From: Sulfurimonas sp. MAG313
GTDB lineage: Bacteria > Campylobacterota > Campylobacteria > Campylobacterales > Sulfurimonadaceae
Length of the DNA stretch: 42,493 nucleotides
Assembly: GCF_029216045.1 (NCBI RefSeq)
Contig: NZ_JAEMVE010000007.1
Location: forward strand, 1 to 42,493
Reading direction: 5' to 3'
Under the pieces are notes generated by a model, which was not told the DNA's origin, ran no database searches, and worked only from the letters and a program-made list of their open reading frames with translations. Of this stretch, positions 6,037 to 19,229 are shown in pieces (position 1 is the stretch's first letter; each line of letters begins with the position of its first letter). Both the position numbers and the translations under genes were made by a program.

Positions 6037-7224
6037 ATGTCAAAGAACTTACAAGAAATAGAAAAACAATATATCATTCCAACTTATGGACGAAACTATA
6101 CAAACTTTGTTTCAGCAAAAAATGCAAGTATTACAGATGATAAAGGTAAAGAATATATAGATTTCACCTCAGGAATTGGGGTCGTTAGTGTGGGACATTC
6201 AAACGAAAGAGTATCAAAGGCTTTATGTGCTCAGGCGGATAAGATTATGCATATATCTAACCTTTATGTGATTGAACCTCAGGTGAAATGTGCTGAACGC
6301 ATAGTGAAACAAAGTACCTATGATATGCAATGCTTTTTTGCAAACTCAGGGGCTGAAGCAAATGAAGGCGCGATTAAAATTGCAAGAAAATATGGTGAAA
6401 TCGAGGGAGAAAGCAAACGTTATAAAATAATTACTCTAGATAAATCTTTTCATGGAAGAACGATTACCGCCTTAAAAGCAACAGGCCAAGAAGCCATGCA
6501 TAACTACTTTGGTCCGTTCCCCGATGGATTTACTTATGCAGCTGATCTTGACGCTATTGAAGGTATGATAGACAGTCATACCGTGGCTGTTATGATAGAA
6601 CTTGTTCAAGGTGAGGGAGGTGTAGAACCTCTTGATAAGAAAAAGGTTCAAGCCTTAGAAAAGATGTTAAAGTCTAAAGATATTTTATTGATAGTAGATG
6701 AAGTTCAAACAGGGGTATATCGAACGGGTGAATTTTTGGCCTCCAATGTATATGAAATTGAACCCGATATTATCACCTTAGCCAAAGGTCTTGGTGGAGG
6801 TATCCCCATTGGTGTGGTTATGACCTCTAAAAAAGAGGTTTTAAGCCCAGGTGATCATGGCTCAACCTTTGGTGGAAACTACCTTTCTACGGTATGTGCA
6901 AATACGGTAATAGATATTTTAGTAGAGCGCAAAGCTTCGGGGGAATTAGATGAAACATTTTTAATGTTTGAAAATAAACTCAAAGAAGTGTTTAAAAATA
7001 ATCGAAATTTATTTACCTCAAGTGTTGGATTTGGATTGATGAGAGGCTTGCGAGTTAAAGACGCACAAACCTTAACAAATATTATCAATCTTTCTCATGA
7101 AAAAGGTTTATTAATGCTTAAAGCAGGGCGAAATACCTTGCGTTTTCTTCCTCCCCTTACTATCAGTGAAGCAGAAACAAATGAAGGGTTTAAGAGGTTA
7201 GATGAAGCACTTTCTTCTTTATAG
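6037..7224 (+). CDS. argD: Acetylornithine aminotransferase ArgD
   Basis: PLP-dependent class III aminotransferase converting N-acetylglutamate semialdehyde to N-acetylornithine in arginine synthesis; many ArgD enzymes also make succinyl-diaminopimelate. Seen: F-A-N-S-G-A-E-A-N-E for phosphate binding (about 107-116), F-H-G-R-T (about 148-152), the cofactor aspartate in I-V-D-E-V-Q-T-G, and the Schiff-base lysine in T-L-A-K-G-L-G-G-G. The 395-residue length is standard and AAGGAAG precedes the start. Its 3' end overlaps the TolC-like gene by 23 nt, which ties an amino-acid gene to an efflux-type operon. Confidence 0.93.
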   Translation: MSKNLQEIEKQYIIPTYGRNYTNFVSAKNASITDDKGKEYIDFTSGIGVVSVGHSNERVSKALCAQADKIMHISNLYVIEPQVKCAERIVKQSTYDMQCFFANSGAEANEGAIKIARKYGEIEGESKRYKIITLDKSFHGRTITALKATGQEAMHNYFGPFPDGFTYAADLDAIEGMIDSHTVAVMIELVQGEGGVEPLDKKKVQALEKMLKSKDILLIVDEVQTGVYRTGEFLASNVYEIEPDIITLAKGLGGGIPIGVVMTSKKEVLSPGDHGSTFGGNYLSTVCANTVIDILVERKASGELDETFLMFENKLKEVFKNNRNLFTSSVGFGLMRGLRVKDAQTLTNIINLSHEKGLLMLKAGRNTLRFLPPLTISEAETNEGFKRLDEALSSL

Positions 7225-8428
7225 TCTTCTTTTTAGCTCACTATTAAGAGCAGAACATGTAGACCTTGATCCCTATATATCCAATCTAAAGCAAAAAGAA
7301 TTTTCGTACGATTATGAAAAATCACTCTTAGAAAAAAAGAAGTTAAGAGACTCATGGATTCAGCCTATTAAACTGCGCTATAGTATCTCAAAAAGCAATC
7401 CTTATAATGAAGGTGGTGCGGGTGTGCAAATGGTGCAAAATTCTGCTATTGCCCTAGATCAGCCTATTTTTAAGTTTGGTGGTATTTATTATGGTATTAA
7501 GTTCTCAGAAGCTTCGTATTTATATAATAAATATAGCATAGATGTAAGTAAAAGAAAGATGATTAAAGACGCTATCTCTTTGTTAATGCAAATTAAACAA
7601 ACCCATCTAACGATACTCAAACAAGAACTTCAAATTGATAATTCTCGTATTAACTTAGAACAGAAAAAAGAGCAGTATCTTAATGGTCAGTTGGACTCAG
7701 GTTTTTTAAATAATGCTATTATTAAAAAAAACAGGGTGACTCAGACCTTATATGACTTACAAACGTCTCAGGAACGTTTGATTTCTAAGTTTGGTGCCAT
7801 TAGTGATTTAAATTATAAAGAAGCAAAAATACCTAATCTTTTATTAGTGAGTAAAAAAGAATTTTTAGAAAAGAATATTGATATAAAACAAGTGCAAAGT
7901 GAAGAAAAAAGAAATCTATATAACAAAAATGTTACTGTGGCTAAATATCTTCCTTCTATAAATCTTACAGCAGGGTATAGCTGGGATAAGCTAGAAAACC
8001 CATCCTTTAGTGGGGTGTCTTTTCCTAGTCCTCCTGAGACGAGTTATTATAATTATGGGCTAAAGGCTAATATATCCTTAGACTTTAATAGTTTCAGAGA
8101 TATTGAGTCTGCTCAGGTGGATTATCTTAAATCTGTCGTTGTAATAGATGATAAAAAACGTGAGCTTTTGGCCTTATATGAACAAGTTAGTCAAAACTTG
8201 AAAAACTTTGATAAAAAAATTCATTTGTCTATAGAAAATGAGTCCTTATATACTAAGCTTTTAGATGAAACAAAACAGCTTTTTAAGGCAGGATATAAAA
8301 CACAATATGATGTGCGAAATCTTTCTAATTCTGTAAAGATAGAAAAGGTTGATCAAAAGATATTTGAAATCGATAAACAATTAGAGCTGTTAAATTTATA
8401 TGAAAAGTTAGTAAATGCAGAAGTTTAG
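7202..8428 (+). CDS. TolC-family outer-membrane channel protein
   Basis: Outer-membrane efflux protein. Seen: a signal peptide (residues 1-17, ending L-R-A-E), long helical stretches with heptad character in two halves (about 100-190 and 300-400), and a strand segment rich in aromatic residues around 250-290, matching the repeated TolC layout of helical barrel plus beta-strands. At 408 residues it is near the family norm. It starts inside the end of argD and overlaps the next gene by 14 nt. With the adaptor at 5229 it would make two of three parts of an efflux or secretion system; the pump must be elsewhere. Confidence 0.8.
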   Translation: MKHFLLYSLLFSSLLRAEHVDLDPYISNLKQKEFSYDYEKSLLEKKKLRDSWIQPIKLRYSISKSNPYNEGGAGVQMVQNSAIALDQPIFKFGGIYYGIKFSEASYLYNKYSIDVSKRKMIKDAISLLMQIKQTHLTILKQELQIDNSRINLEQKKEQYLNGQLDSGFLNNAIIKKNRVTQTLYDLQTSQERLISKFGAISDLNYKEAKIPNLLLVSKKEFLEKNIDIKQVQSEEKRNLYNKNVTVAKYLPSINLTAGYSWDKLENPSFSGVSFPSPPETSYYNYGLKANISLDFNSFRDIESAQVDYLKSVVVIDDKKRELLALYEQVSQNLKNFDKKIHLSIENESLYTKLLDETKQLFKAGYKTQYDVRNLSNSVKIEKVDQKIFEIDKQLELLNLYEKLVNAEV

Positions 8429-14539: not shown

Positions 14540-15139
14540 ATGAGTATAGATAAGGCATCATTTCGTAAACTCTGCATGAAAAAGTTGAAAAATACTTCAG
14601 CTCATAATAGAAAATATAAAGAATATGCAGTTCAAAGAAAACTGAAAAAAGTACTAGATGAGATTAATGCATCCTCCATGCTTTTTTATTTACCTTTAAA
14701 GACGGAAGTAAATTTAAATAAGTTATTACAATATGAAAAAAGAAATATCAAAAAATGTTATGTACCGTTTATGGTTGGGGAAAGTTTTAAGATGGTACCA
14801 TACAGACAGCCTCTAAATGTCGGTAGATTCGGCGTTAGTGAGCCAAATAATTCTAATAAAAAAATTAAAAATGTTGATGTCGCTATTGTACCTGTTCTAG
14901 GAGTGGATGCAGATGCAAGGCGAGTTGGTTTTGGTAAGGGGATGTACGATAGATTTTTCCCTACACTAGCAAAAACACCCATTACCATTTTTGTTCAGCT
15001 TGAACAATGTCTTTGTGATGAAAAAATTACAGACGATTATGATATTCAAGCCGATATTTATATAACTCCAAAAGAAATACTCTATAGGAAAAATAATGTT
15101 AAATCAGATTCTTCTAGGCGGTGGTATAGCCACCGTTAG
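14540..15139 (+). CDS. 5-formyltetrahydrofolate cyclo-ligase family
   Basis: ATP-dependent conversion of 5-formyl-THF to 5,10-methenyl-THF in one-carbon metabolism (MTHFS/YgfA family). Seen: N-terminal basic helix S-F-R-K-L-C, F-Y-L-P-L-K-T-E-V-N (about 52-61), V-A-I-V-P-V-L-G-V-D (about 115-124), and the family signature R-V-G-F-G-K-G-M-Y-D-R (about 131-141). The family fold normally ends near I-T-P-K-E-I; here about 20 further residues follow, 14 of them in a 44-nt overlap with rny. Confidence 0.9.
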   Translation: MSIDKASFRKLCMKKLKNTSAHNRKYKEYAVQRKLKKVLDEINASSMLFYLPLKTEVNLNKLLQYEKRNIKKCYVPFMVGESFKMVPYRQPLNVGRFGVSEPNNSNKKIKNVDVAIVPVLGVDADARRVGFGKGMYDRFFPTLAKTPITIFVQLEQCLCDEKITDDYDIQADIYITPKEILYRKNNVKSDSSRRWYSHR

Positions 15140-16664
15140 TGGAGTAATCGGATTTTTTATCTCTAAAAAGTTAAGTAATGCACAGTTTGATGCCTTAATC
15201 GAACAAGCTAAGGCGAAGGCCAAGGTTATCGATTCAGAAGCGGAATTAATGCTTCATAAGGCAAGTTTTAAGGCTCAAGAGATTGGGGATAAGGCACAAA
15301 GAAGATTTGATGACGCCAAAGAAAATGCTGAAAAATCTTTAAAAGAAAATTATCAAGAGCTTGAAACAAATGAAAAAGACTTTGAAGAATTTAAGGTTGA
15401 AGAACTTCGTCGTATTAAGATAGAAGCCTCTAAAACGCAAAACTTAAATTTACAGCTTGAGCGTACACAACACTCAATGCAGAGACAAAAAGACGATTAC
15501 TTAAACCGTTCAAATGAAGCGGTAAAAATTATAGAAAGTGGTGCAGGGCTTACCTGTGAAGAAGCAAAGAGTTTACTATTAAAAAAAGTTGAAGAAGACT
15601 CTCGCGAAGAGATTGCTCATATAGTAAGAAAGTATGAACAAGAAGCAAAAGATGAGGGAAGAAAAAAAGCAAATTACATTTTAGCTCAGGCTACATCACG
15701 GTTTGCAGGAGAATTTTCATCTGAAAGATTGGTGAATGAAGTCCATTTAGATGATGATGAACTTAAGGGTCGTATCATTGGTAAAGAGGGTCGAAATATA
15801 AAAACCCTTGAAATGCTCTTAGGTGTAGATATCATTGTGGATGAAACACCTAATGCAATTTTATTGAGTTCATTTAATCTATACAGACGCGCAATTGCTA
15901 CACGCACCATTGAGCTTTTAATTGAAGATGGACGTATCCAACCTGCTCGCATAGAAGAAATTTTTGCCAAGGTAACCGATGAATTTGAAGCCTCTGTTTT
16001 AGCTGAGGGGGAACAAATTGCAAGAGATATGCATATAACAGACATTCATCCTGAGCTTTTAAAGCTTATTGGACGTTTACGTTATCGCGCTTCTTATGGA
16101 CAAAATGCCTTAGCGCATACTCTTGAGGTAGCCAATCTTGCCGGTATTATTGCTGCAGAACTTGGTGGAGATGAACTACTTGCTAAAAGAGCAGGGTTAT
16201 TACACGACATTGGTAAGGCCTTAACTCATGATAAGGGTGGAAATCATGTTGACCTTGGCTTAGAGTTAGCAAGTAATTATAATGAACATCCTGTAGTGCT
16301 AAATGCTATTCCTGCGCATCATGGCTTAGAAGAAATTAAGAGTATAGAATGTGCTGCAGTGTGTGCAGGTGACGCCTTATCTGCTGCAAGACCAGGTGCA
16401 AGACGAGAAGTCTTAGAATCGTATCTTAAACGAGTAACTGAGATAGAAGAGATTGCCTCCCATAAACACGGAGTCAAACAGGCTTACGCTATTAATGCAG
16501 GTCGTGAAGTACGTGTTATTGTTAATGCGGAACTCCTTAATGATGATGAATCATCACTTTTAGCTAAAGAAATAGCCAAAGAAATAGAATCAAAAATGAA
16601 TTTTCCAGGTGATATAAAAGTAGCCGTTATTCGTGAACTTCGAGCCATAGAATTTGCTCGGTAA
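15096..16664 (+). CDS. rny: Ribonuclease Y
   Basis: Membrane-anchored endoribonuclease that starts mRNA decay. Seen: N-terminal transmembrane segment (about 5-24), long charged coiled coil (about 25-190), KH domain with G-R-I-I-G-K-E-G-R-N-I (about 226-236), and an HD domain with L-L-H-D-I-G-K-A-L (about 369-377). Length 522 is the family norm. Campylobacterota commonly carry RNase Y rather than RNase E. Its start lies inside the end of the folate gene, preceded by AGGAAAAATA. Confidence 0.95.
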   Translation: MLNQILLGGGIATVSGVIGFFISKKLSNAQFDALIEQAKAKAKVIDSEAELMLHKASFKAQEIGDKAQRRFDDAKENAEKSLKENYQELETNEKDFEEFKVEELRRIKIEASKTQNLNLQLERTQHSMQRQKDDYLNRSNEAVKIIESGAGLTCEEAKSLLLKKVEEDSREEIAHIVRKYEQEAKDEGRKKANYILAQATSRFAGEFSSERLVNEVHLDDDELKGRIIGKEGRNIKTLEMLLGVDIIVDETPNAILLSSFNLYRRAIATRTIELLIEDGRIQPARIEEIFAKVTDEFEASVLAEGEQIARDMHITDIHPELLKLIGRLRYRASYGQNALAHTLEVANLAGIIAAELGGDELLAKRAGLLHDIGKALTHDKGGNHVDLGLELASNYNEHPVVLNAIPAHHGLEEIKSIECAAVCAGDALSAARPGARREVLESYLKRVTEIEEIASHKHGVKQAYAINAGREVRVIVNAELLNDDESSLLAKEIAKEIESKMNFPGDIKVAVIRELRAIEFAR

Positions 16665-16880: not shown

Positions 16881-16919
16881 CGTTTATTTTTATAGGGATA
16901 TTTAATGATCTTAAATACT

Positions 16920-16950
16920 GGGCACCTCTAAAAACCCTATACTCACTCAG
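16920..16950 (-). repeat. Left terminal inverted repeat of the 265-bp element
   Basis: 31 bp, two mismatches to the right end (both C/T differences). Its outermost 12 nt include the reverse complement of the dispersed repeat TAGAGGTGCCC. Confidence 0.7.
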
Positions 16951-17112
16951 CGATACAAGAAGTTTGCTATTATGAGGCGGATGTGTGAAGGAGCTATTAA
17001 TAGCTTCAATCACATTCAACGATTAAGAGTGAATTTCTTGTATCGCCCTTTGGGAGGTATTTTGAAACGCAATCTTGCACATGTTTTTCCATCGCCAGAG
17101 CTACGGCTATGA
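16951..17112 (+). pseudogene. Transposase C-terminal remnant
   Basis: The frame runs from the left inverted repeat to TGA at 17110-17112, 72 nt before the right end. It reads R-Y-K-K-F-A-I-M-R-R-M-x-E-G-A-I-N-S, then R-L-R-V-N-F-L-Y-R and a final A-H-V-F-P-S-P-E-L. The E-G-x-I-N-S with later R-x-x-N-F-L and a leucine/asparagine tail resembles the last part of DDE transposases, where the glutamate is the third catalytic residue. No start codon or N-terminal part exists. Similarity is by eye only. Confidence 0.4.
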
Positions 17113-17153
17113 CTCAAGAAAATTCTTACACAATCTTACATTTCAAAAGACCT

Positions 17154-17184
17154 CTGAGTGAATATAGAGTTTTTAGAGGTGCCC
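17154..17184 (+). repeat. Right terminal inverted repeat of the 265-bp element
   Basis: 31 bp, inverted partner of 16920-16950; it contains TAGAGGTGCCC at its outer end. Confidence 0.7.
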
Positions 17185-17311
17185 TACTTTTATATTTGAG
17201 TTGCTTTGTTCTACAATTACCCATTTGTAGGAAAGTTTATAATTCTCTTTTTTTTCTTCTTTTGAAAGTGGACGTAACTTCGTTTTTTTATTTGCGCATT
17301 AGGACATAATT

Positions 17312-17323
17312 TAGAGGTGCCCT
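17312..17323 (+). repeat. Dispersed repeat, copy 4 (TAGAGGTGCCCT)
   Basis: Exact copy of the 12-bp consensus, preceded by ATAAT and followed by TTATTAA, 127 nt beyond the right end of the 265-bp element and in the same orientation as that end. Confidence 0.6.
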
Positions 17324-17510: not shown

Positions 17511-19229
17511 TTGCAAGACACAGCCTTAAATATATTAAAAACGGGTAATAATGTTTTTATAACGGGTTCTGCGGGAACGGGGAAGACCTATCTTTTAAAT
17601 AAGTTTACCTTTTATTTGAAATCACGAAAAATCATTCCAACCATAGTTGCGCCTACTGGTATTGCTGCCTCGCATTTGCAAGGGCAGACTATCCATTCAT
17701 TTTTCAGCTTAGGGATTCGCGACGCTATTGATGATGAATATATAGAGTCTTTACTAGATAAAAAATATTTGCAGACTAGGTTTTCTAAACTCAAGATTTT
17801 AATTATTGATGAGATTTCGATGGTGTCTCCTGAGATATTTTATTGCATGGATCAAATACTTAGGGCTTTTAAAAAAAATGATAATCCTTTTGGTGGGGTT
17901 CAGACTATTCTTTCTGGAGATTTCTTTCAATTGCCTCCCATCTCAAGAGTGCCTAAGGACAAACGCTTTGCTTGGCAATCACCTTCTTGGAAAGAGTTAG
18001 AGTTAAAGACCTGTTATTTACAAGAAAAGTTTAGACAAGATGATAATGTTCTTATTAGTATTTTAGACGAGATTAGAAGCGGCAGTGTTTCACGTCATTC
18101 TTATGAGGTATTAAACTCAAGACATCAGAAAGACCTAGCAATAGACTTCACACCCACAAAGCTTTATACTCATAATATAGATGTTGATAGAATCAATAAT
18201 GATGAGTTAAATAAGATTCACAATAAGGCTTTTACTTTTAAGTATACGTCAGAAGGAACGGCTAAAAATATTGAGAAGATATTTAAAACTTCACTTGTTT
18301 TAGAAGAAATGTATCTTAAAAAAGACGCGGTAGTTATGTTTATTAAAAACAACCTAGAACTTGGCTATGTTAACGGGACTACGGGTGTTGTTGTTGACTT
18401 TGATAAACAAACGGGTCTGCCCCTAGTAAGAACATCGTATGGGACTTTAATCAAGGTTGTTTTAGAAGATTGGACTATGGAAAATGATGGTGGAAACATT
18501 ATTGCCAAGGTGTCACAGATACCTCTTAAACTTGCGTGGGCTATAACGATACATAAGTCTCAAGGAATGACGCTTGATTCTGCTGAGATAGACCTGTCTA
18601 AGACATTTGAAGTTGGGCAGGGTTATGTGGCTTTGTCTCGTATTAAAAACATAGAAGGGCTTCGTTTAATGGGTCTAAATGATATGGCCCTAAGCGTTGA
18701 CCCCCTTATCTTACATATAGACGATAGAATCAAGACTGCCTCTTTAAAAGCACAAAATGAAATATCGGCTGTTTCAAGTGAACATCTTGAAGAACTGTTT
18801 GAATCTTATATTATGAGTATAGATGGGATTACAGATAGTACTAAAATTAAAGAGCAAGAGGTGATTTTAAAATCTGAAAAGAAGGTAGTTTTTTCTAAGA
18901 CTACGGCTTCTCACCTTCAAACAAAAGAGCTAATTTCTAGTTCTAACTCTATTATTGAATTGGCTACAAACAGAGGGATGAGCAATGGAACTATAATTAA
19001 TCATCTTCGCACCTTAAAAGAGTTAGATCCAAATCTAAATATAGATAAATTTATGCCAAATCTTAATACCCTCACCCTTGTAAAAGAAGCTCTGATAAAA
19101 ATTAGGCGAAGAGCGAATAAAGATGATTTTTCTGAGGATGGTAAACCCCGTTTAAAGCCAATTTTTGAAGTCCTTGACTCTAAGATAGACTATGATGATA
19201 TTAGAATATCATTGCTGAAATATGCATAA
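17511..19229 (+). CDS. PIF1-like superfamily 1 helicase with C-terminal HTH
   Basis: ATP-dependent 5'-3' DNA helicase of the PIF1/RecD-like group. Seen: Walker A G-S-A-G-T-G-K-T (19-26), A-P-T-G-I-A-A (47-53), Walker B L-I-I-D-E-I-S (D100-E101), G-D-F-F-Q-L-P-P (motif III), a central segment, then the UvrD_C_2-type A-W-A-I-T-I-H-K-S-Q-G-M-T and V-A-L-S-R motifs. The last 90 residues look like a helix-turn-helix (HTH_40-like) with N-R-G-M-S-N-G-T-I-I-N-H-L. The only in-frame start near the normal N-terminus is TTG at 17511. Gene and flanks carry insertion remnants, so it may be acquired DNA. Confidence 0.85.
   Translation: MQDTALNILKTGNNVFITGSAGTGKTYLLNKFTFYLKSRKIIPTIVAPTGIAASHLQGQTIHSFFSLGIRDAIDDEYIESLLDKKYLQTRFSKLKILIIDEISMVSPEIFYCMDQILRAFKKNDNPFGGVQTILSGDFFQLPPISRVPKDKRFAWQSPSWKELELKTCYLQEKFRQDDNVLISILDEIRSGSVSRHSYEVLNSRHQKDLAIDFTPTKLYTHNIDVDRINNDELNKIHNKAFTFKYTSEGTAKNIEKIFKTSLVLEEMYLKKDAVVMFIKNNLELGYVNGTTGVVVDFDKQTGLPLVRTSYGTLIKVVLEDWTMENDGGNIIAKVSQIPLKLAWAITIHKSQGMTLDSAEIDLSKTFEVGQGYVALSRIKNIEGLRLMGLNDMALSVDPLILHIDDRIKTASLKAQNEISAVSSEHLEELFESYIMSIDGITDSTKIKEQEVILKSEKKVVFSKTTASHLQTKELISSSNSIIELATNRGMSNGTIINHLRTLKELDPNLNIDKFMPNLNTLTLVKEALIKIRRRANKDDFSEDGKPRLKPIFEVLDSKIDYDDIRISLLKYA

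Follow-up and report, generated by a model that had tools for sequence, protein, structure and literature searches.

A MITE-like element with a conserved two-hairpin core and IS5-type ends in Sulfurimonas and related genomes

Bacterial MITEs are usually read as the ends of an insertion sequence (IS) around a meaningless middle. In the element family analyzed here, conservation lies in the middle, and it is the ends that vary. As described in excerpts of PMC2229807 and PMC3733652, NEMIS/Correia, ERIC, RUP and YPAL elements resemble it in size, inverted ends and duplication, and it shares with bacterial MITEs a scant coding role, an intergenic location and strong folding; MITEAba12 is likewise comparable (excerpt of PMC6382973). 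However, in the present family conservation extends beyond the ends to the inside, which covaries strongly across a whole order and is common to elements with different ends. Caulobacter CIR elements are also similar, having two long inverted-repeat arms and a linker conserved between genera, but they are only about 110 bp long and the review sets them apart from elements in which the 5' end pairs with the 3' end, whereas here paired ends enclose both arms (excerpt of PMC2229807). Like REPIN/RAYT and TIRYT systems, the element is a short folded repeat with no IS of its own noticed in the genome; it differs from them in its fixed-length duplications, long DDE-type ends and hairpins of about 97 nt. 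The short GTAG and CGTC REPs of Sulfurovum are a different thing from the element (excerpt of PMC3733652). IS5-family insertion sequences (NCBIfam NF033581, IS5_4, and relatives including one annotated as ISAzo41) have the same outer 18 bp and 4-bp duplication, whereas the element has no transposase, measures about 266 instead of about 1300 bp and contains a conserved hairpin core. Among the open-licence PMC papers listed, none describes a Campylobacterota element of this kind in its title or abstract opening.

The window, i.e. the whole 42,493-nt stretch of DNA analyzed, is one of the 246 contigs of the 2.54 Mb host genome, Sulfurimonas sp. MAG313. The element is located between the genes for RNase Y and a PIF1-like helicase (Table 1). 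The initial annotation had described a MITE-like element with 31-bp inverted ends alike at 29 of 31 positions and a flanking TACT duplication; comparison of the two 31-nt arms (94% complementary, 29/31) confirmed the former and reading both TACT copies in the sequence the latter. Inward of the outer 18-20 bp, changes in the adjoining 6 bp of the left end are largely mirrored in the right end. A one-base variant of the H1 palindrome TGAAGGAGCTATTAATAGCTTCA is present in an element of the host genome with other ends (family B, see below), and H2 of the window copy carries AATCTT on both arms as an internal mismatch. Folded as single-stranded DNA, the window element has a z-score of -10.3, with none of 200 shuffles folding as well.

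Table 1 Features of the window element and its surroundings.
Feature	Position	Strand	Remarks
RNase Y gene	15096..16664		
Left 4-bp target duplication TACT	16916..16919	.	Read; exact 4-bp flank repeat in 57/98 elements
Left terminal inverted repeat	16920..16950	+	Outer 18-20 bp (GGGCACCTCTAAAAACCC TA) of IS5 type
Hairpin H1, 95 nt	16951..17045	+	Internal-loop motif AGGC ... AACG; structure helices 2-4
H1 apical 23-bp palindrome TGAAGGAGCTATTAATAGCTTCA	16986..17008	+	1 match in window, 0 in 100 shuffles
Short middle hairpin CCC-TTT-GGG	17046..17054	+	Helix 5; 99.4% of cells paired
Hairpin H2, 99 nt	17055..17153	+	Diverged inverted paralogue of H1; helices 6-8
Right terminal inverted repeat	17154..17184	+	Pairs with left end
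Right 4-bp target duplication TACT	17185..17188	.	Read
Solitary end-like site	17308..17322	-	Reads AATTTAGAGGTGCCC on + strand; just downstream of element; perhaps a remnant
PIF1-like helicase gene	17511..19229		

A search for other copies, whose absence had been named as grounds for rejecting a mobile element, found them in the host and in related genomes. Besides the window copy, the host genome contains three full-length copies 95-97% identical to it, one of 249 bp at 87% identity and shortened copies; its 62 matches take in lone ends and incomplete copies besides the window copy itself, and often count a place twice, once per orientation. Matches to the element occur in 18 of 60 genomes, the host genome included. 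Scanning the 20-nt end against GTDB r220 contigs yielded at least 116 stretches, and 80 of these comprise 74 from Campylobacterota, four on contigs of one Saprospiraceae MAG and two from one Ruminococcus MAG. Carriers are mostly environmental bacteria. A total of 100 distinct end-paired elements could be extracted from the loci (59 of 264-269 bp, 29 shorter, 12 longer), the commonest length being 266 bp (35 copies). Among the 98 elements with flanks, 57 are bordered by an exact 4-bp repeat, 24 by one with one mismatch, 12 with two and five with three, and no exact flank repeat of 5-9 bp was found; TTAA (12), TAAA (10) and TTAT, ATAA and TTTA (six each) are the commonest duplications. Because more than half of the elements with such ends show the exact 4-bp duplication, 16920-17184 is a copy of mobile DNA. 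It possesses terminal inverted repeats and a target-site duplication, has no coding capacity when checked against Pfam and NCBIfam, and shares its ends with an autonomous IS5-family element of viral origin (contig L432, see below). The initial description as a MITE-like, non-autonomous element that kept both ends thus stands, relatives with the same ends being present in the host and other genomes.

With ORFs called mechanically and intergenic lengths uncontrolled, 41 of the 48 insertion sites that have sufficient flank, among those of the 59 copies, lie outside ORFs of at least 150 aa, compared with about 20% expected, such ORFs covering about 80% of positions; the other seven lie inside. At the 39 intergenic sites with both neighbours, these are co-directional at 17 and 10 sites, divergent at 11 and convergent at one. 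The complete genome G180 contains 23 full-length end pairs 265-266 bp apart and one pair at 129 bp (11 places read), and 12 of its 15 listed H1 matches have an identical score. The other ground initially named for rejection, invariant presence at orthologous sites, did not apply either: in 10 relatives the rny locus is devoid of a paired set of ends, eight lacking any end-like site and two having one lone weak site. These loci are not clean empty sites, because all 10 lack a recognizable right-hand PIF1-like gene and two, which may have been truncated at contig ends, are shorter than the others. Four shortened copies of the host genome (L014, L015, L018 and L024) consist of scarcely more than both ends, and the 38-62 bp members of the end-paired set are likewise nearly ends alone. 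Inspection by eye of the joints of some shortened copies suggests deletion between short direct repeats, e.g. ACCTCT. Two host loci (L008 on contig C22, L009 on contig C55) have an identical left flank of the element and different right flanks, due to either recombination between copies or an assembly chimera.

The initial annotation had further pointed to a full-length relative with the same ends as potential support, and one was identified. Viral contig L432 encodes a complete 1296-bp IS5-family element (6626-7921), flanked by CTCT, with ends GGGCACCTCTAAAAACCC and GGGAACCTCTAAAAACCC alike at 17 of 18 positions. Its transposase matches NF033581 (IS5_4) with 272.8 bits (cut-off 140) as well as PF01609 and PF05598. 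The outer 18 bp of the window element match the ends of this insertion sequence, and the end type is therefore assigned to IS5; the ends of the window element and its relatives, referred to as family A, are thus IS5-type ends with 4-bp duplications. Relatives are present in 22 plasmid records, and three of the five inspected have similar ends on both sides: Pseudomonas (GGGCACCTCGAATAACGC and GGGCACCTCGAAAAACCT), Diaphorobacter (GGGAACCTCTCACAACC and GGGAACCTCTCAAAACC, GTGA on either side) and Acidithiobacillus (GGGCACCTCGATCAACC and GGGCGGCTCGAAAAACC, TATA on either side), with Aromatoleum and Thauera plasmid elements showing a single end-like site each. The Saprospiraceae MAG carries 83, 85, 156 and 160-bp elements (L146, L191, L202, L207) with family A outer ends and a different inside, which have one weak 29-nt match (E 0.04) to a gene annotated as an IS1182 transposase.

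IS5-type ends and a duplication would also be found in an IS that was internally deleted, leaving its ends and a transposase tail, as had been suggested initially. The 54-codon frame on which this suggestion was based does exist (within 16915-17112), but its resemblance to a transposase C-terminus did not hold up: it has no Pfam or NCBIfam match at E <= 1 and is open in five of 59 copies, namely the full-length four of the host genome (L001-L004) and one copy of genome G002 (L074), shuffled sequence being open in 3.8%. No remnant of an IS5 transposase gene was recognized within the element. Its inside instead consists of covarying hairpins common to elements with other ends, and an origin by internal deletion seems hardly credible.

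The folded inside was analyzed using an alignment of the 59 copies of 264-269 bp, with the remaining 41 of the 100 excluded by length. In the RNAalifold consensus, the ends are paired and are accompanied by H1, a CCC-nnn-GGG hairpin and H2. Changes on both sides were observed in 65 of the 87 consensus pairs. Double-change cells number 952 compared with 287.8 in shuffles, 95.3% of cells are paired compared with 77.2%, and the covariation score is 0.509 compared with 0.168, none of 500 shuffles reaching any of five measures. Sliding the partners by 1-3 columns gave 134-200 double-change cells and 38.7-50.9% paired cells, a comparison in which the consensus is favoured as it was taken from the same alignment, whose copies are kin. 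The inside of the element is thus a conserved, strongly covarying structure of two hairpins. Across the 59 copies, sequence itself is conserved in the outer 20 bp; the next six columns are variable and mostly complementary, with the worst pair unpaired in 18 of 59. H1 and H2 are inverted paralogues, and in many elements the H1 model matches H2 on the opposite strand. The H1 motifs AGGC and AACG are at the expected place in 56 and 57 of the 59 copies, respectively, and the H2 motif ATCT is found in the 5' arm of 41 and the 3' arm of 51. An integron attC site was also considered as a candidate and set aside on the basis of the box consensus.

Covariation of this kind could be the product of a mutational process in which template switching between hairpin arms keeps the pairing without selection. 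Long near-perfect arms are known substrates for template-switch correction. However, when copies at least 95% identical are compared (17 pairs), 67 of the differences at paired sites are one-sided, whereas five are compensated and three affect both sides without compensation. The compensated share increases with distance, from 7% through 15%, 47% and 56% to 62% in the last bin (<70% identical). This is a pattern of mutation followed by slow compensation and not of immediate arm correction; with near-identical copies mostly one-sided and distant ones mostly both-sided, it fits long-term selection on folding. Further, mismatched internal motifs are fixed in place in most copies, and correction would tend to erase them. 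Overall, we regard template switching as an improbable source of the pairing.

Selection on folding could operate on DNA or on RNA. Mismatches over the 87 plus-strand pairs comprise 243 GT and 114 AC, but this tally is biased towards the strand on which the structure was predicted. In the 78 pairs predicted on both strands, GT (126) and AC (102) are nearly equal among 4594 cells; the nine plus-only pairs contain 117 GT and the 11 minus-only pairs 303 AC compared with 302 Watson-Crick cells. Stems of tRNAs from the same loci, a small control of 12 tRNAs, show 11 GT and no AC in 144 cells. The near equality of GT and AC in the strand-neutral pairs favours pairing at the DNA level; dead copies accumulating one-sided mutations would show the same symmetry, and the DNA reading is therefore favoured and not proved. 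Alternatively, the core may work as RNA, with read-through transcripts of intergenic copies folding and altering mRNA stability or the termination of neighbours, as has been proposed for Neisseria NEMIS elements (excerpt of PMC2229807). RNA folding is indeed strong on both strands (z -11.2 and -12.4), insertions are mostly intergenic, 46 of 59 copies form the more stable RNA fold on the minus strand and the AC-rich minus-only pairs correspond to G-U on that strand. This stands against the GT to AC balance of the shared pairs, so different from the tRNA control, and against an Rfam scan of seven loci with family A and B elements, in which all three matches at E <= 1 fall outside the elements. 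We consider an RNA role unlikely.

The same core was found between other ends. In the host genome, a 264-bp element in locus L012 (family B, ends TTACGCCACTAACTAAACAGTC) has its architecture in common with family A and is bordered by TA in three of three places, two being shortened copies and a 2-bp repeat being weak evidence. Family C, a single case with TA flanks and the same architecture, is located inside an A copy in L227, and a family B element likewise interrupts an A copy in L006 (host contig C21); such insertions within A elements suggest a route for the exchange of cores or ends. A hairpin model of H1 (R1), whose training set included families B and C, independently recovered three further families. 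Family D (ends ACTGATGTTACGCAGTA) was found in the complete genome G039, and among its 13 places across the loci, 10 measure 271 bp and 10 are bordered by an exact 5-bp repeat. Family E (TAGACCTCTTTCnTAACC) occurs in G006, with an ambiguous duplication (TA in three of five cases), and family F (GGGCATCACCAAAATCCC) in G030 and G014. R1 matches were obtained in 79 of 248 Campylobacterales genomes and 29 of 74 genera (E <= 1e-5); since 16 candidates were scored per genome under stricter filters, these counts are lower bounds. Judged by eye, the ends of families A-F are seemingly unrelated. Because duplication lengths differ, we infer that different transposases act on one kind of core. Viral contig L451 carries a 218-bp inverted-repeat element (6455-6672) whose ends, ACTCACGTTACGCA, resemble those of family D and which may be flanked by a longer repeat.

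An enzyme-bearing element with the two-hairpin core was not found in this analysis. Considering the nearest facing end only, no facing end pairs (<=4 mismatches in 20) 600-4500 bp apart were detected in 253 loci, and the end lists of G002, G014 and G006 contain no arrangement at IS distance. The one arrangement of this type in G028 consists of an intact copy plus another lone end 1.5 kb away, and tblastn with the IS5 transposase gave no match there. None of the end pairs of G180 lies at IS distance, and inspection of the ORF starts around its nine lone ends with <=2 mismatches and two with three mismatches revealed no recognizable transposase. PF01609 has three matches in two of five host genomes searched and is absent from the other three, with no good family A end at the loci of the matches; PF13358 has one match in one of six genomes, with no family B end beside it. 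Using the L432 transposase for tblastn over the loci, matches were confined to L432 and six plasmid loci. Sweeping 431 loci for inverted repeats revealed, among 60 of the 111 matches, one apparently intact IS. It lies in L135 (host contig C136), encodes a PF01609 transposase of 466 aa, has TACTCAACTTTCGCACATAAA-type ends and is not related to the element. Plasmids gave no match to the window copy or to one B and one D copy, and phages none to one relative; a Sulfurovum mangrovi plasmid matches a G180 copy at 72% over 74% of its length. In viral contigs, no IS was recognized as a carrier for families B, D and E.

With no end-matched IS noticed in complete genomes and hairpins carrying conserved mismatches, it is conceivable that the folded single strand is mobilized by a solo, host-encoded tyrosine (HUH) transposase, the role ascribed to RAYT or TIRYT proteins for REP or TIR repeats. 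In the RAYT pattern, repeats lack an IS of their own, and Sulfurovum sp. NBC37-1 encodes tyrosine transposases (excerpts of PMC3733652). The TIRYT motif GGGGWSAS given there does not fit GGGCACCT, however, and the duplications are fixed in length, at 4 bp in family A and 5 bp in family D. Fixed-length target duplications are not expected of HUH transposition, and we give this route little chance.

Instead, the element is likely a MITE, a transposable element that is not autonomous and whose ends are of IS5 type. A DDE transposase of the IS5 family, provided in trans, would cut at the ends, and insertion would occur with a 4-bp stagger into AT-rich sites. Selection would operate at the time of movement, with onward copying restricted to those copies still able to fold, with paired ends as one stem plus two hairpins. 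Such DNA folding might take place in lagging-strand DNA at the fork or as a cruciform, would bring together both ends of a short stiff element and might make H1 and H2 accessible to a protein of the host or the transposon; this function of the core is what we infer. The missing enzyme is the weakest point of the proposed mechanism: no end-matched IS was found in the host genomes searched, and the sole IS with these same ends is on a viral contig. Possibly the enzyme is gained and lost along with viruses or plasmids; alternatively, a solo gene could operate in trans. The GT excess in plus-strand pairs also speaks against this explanation, and the AC-rich minus-only pairs, together with the greater stability of minus-strand RNA, would suit an RNA from that strand.

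More tentatively, and with somewhat more doubt than confidence, the two-hairpin core itself may be the unit of evolution, i.e. a Campylobacterales DNA module that acquires the ends of several seemingly unrelated transposons (IS5-type ends with 4-bp duplications, TA-duplication ends and 5-bp-duplication ends) and rides different transposases in turn, its ends possibly being swapped by recombination once one element inserts into the core of another. If the core does aid movement by more than one transposase, it would offer a compact example, open to testing, of how transposition can place DNA folding under selection, and would hint at how an element without genes persists across a bacterial order, in genomes where no matching IS was found.

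Six lone end-like sites of the TTTAGAGGTGCCC type, all in one shared orientation, are present in the window (10021, 12983, 17308, 19595, 31817 and 38216). They could be remnants or a separate motif. Genome-wide, such sites number 81 at <=2 mismatches, element ends counted, compared with three for the reversed pattern.
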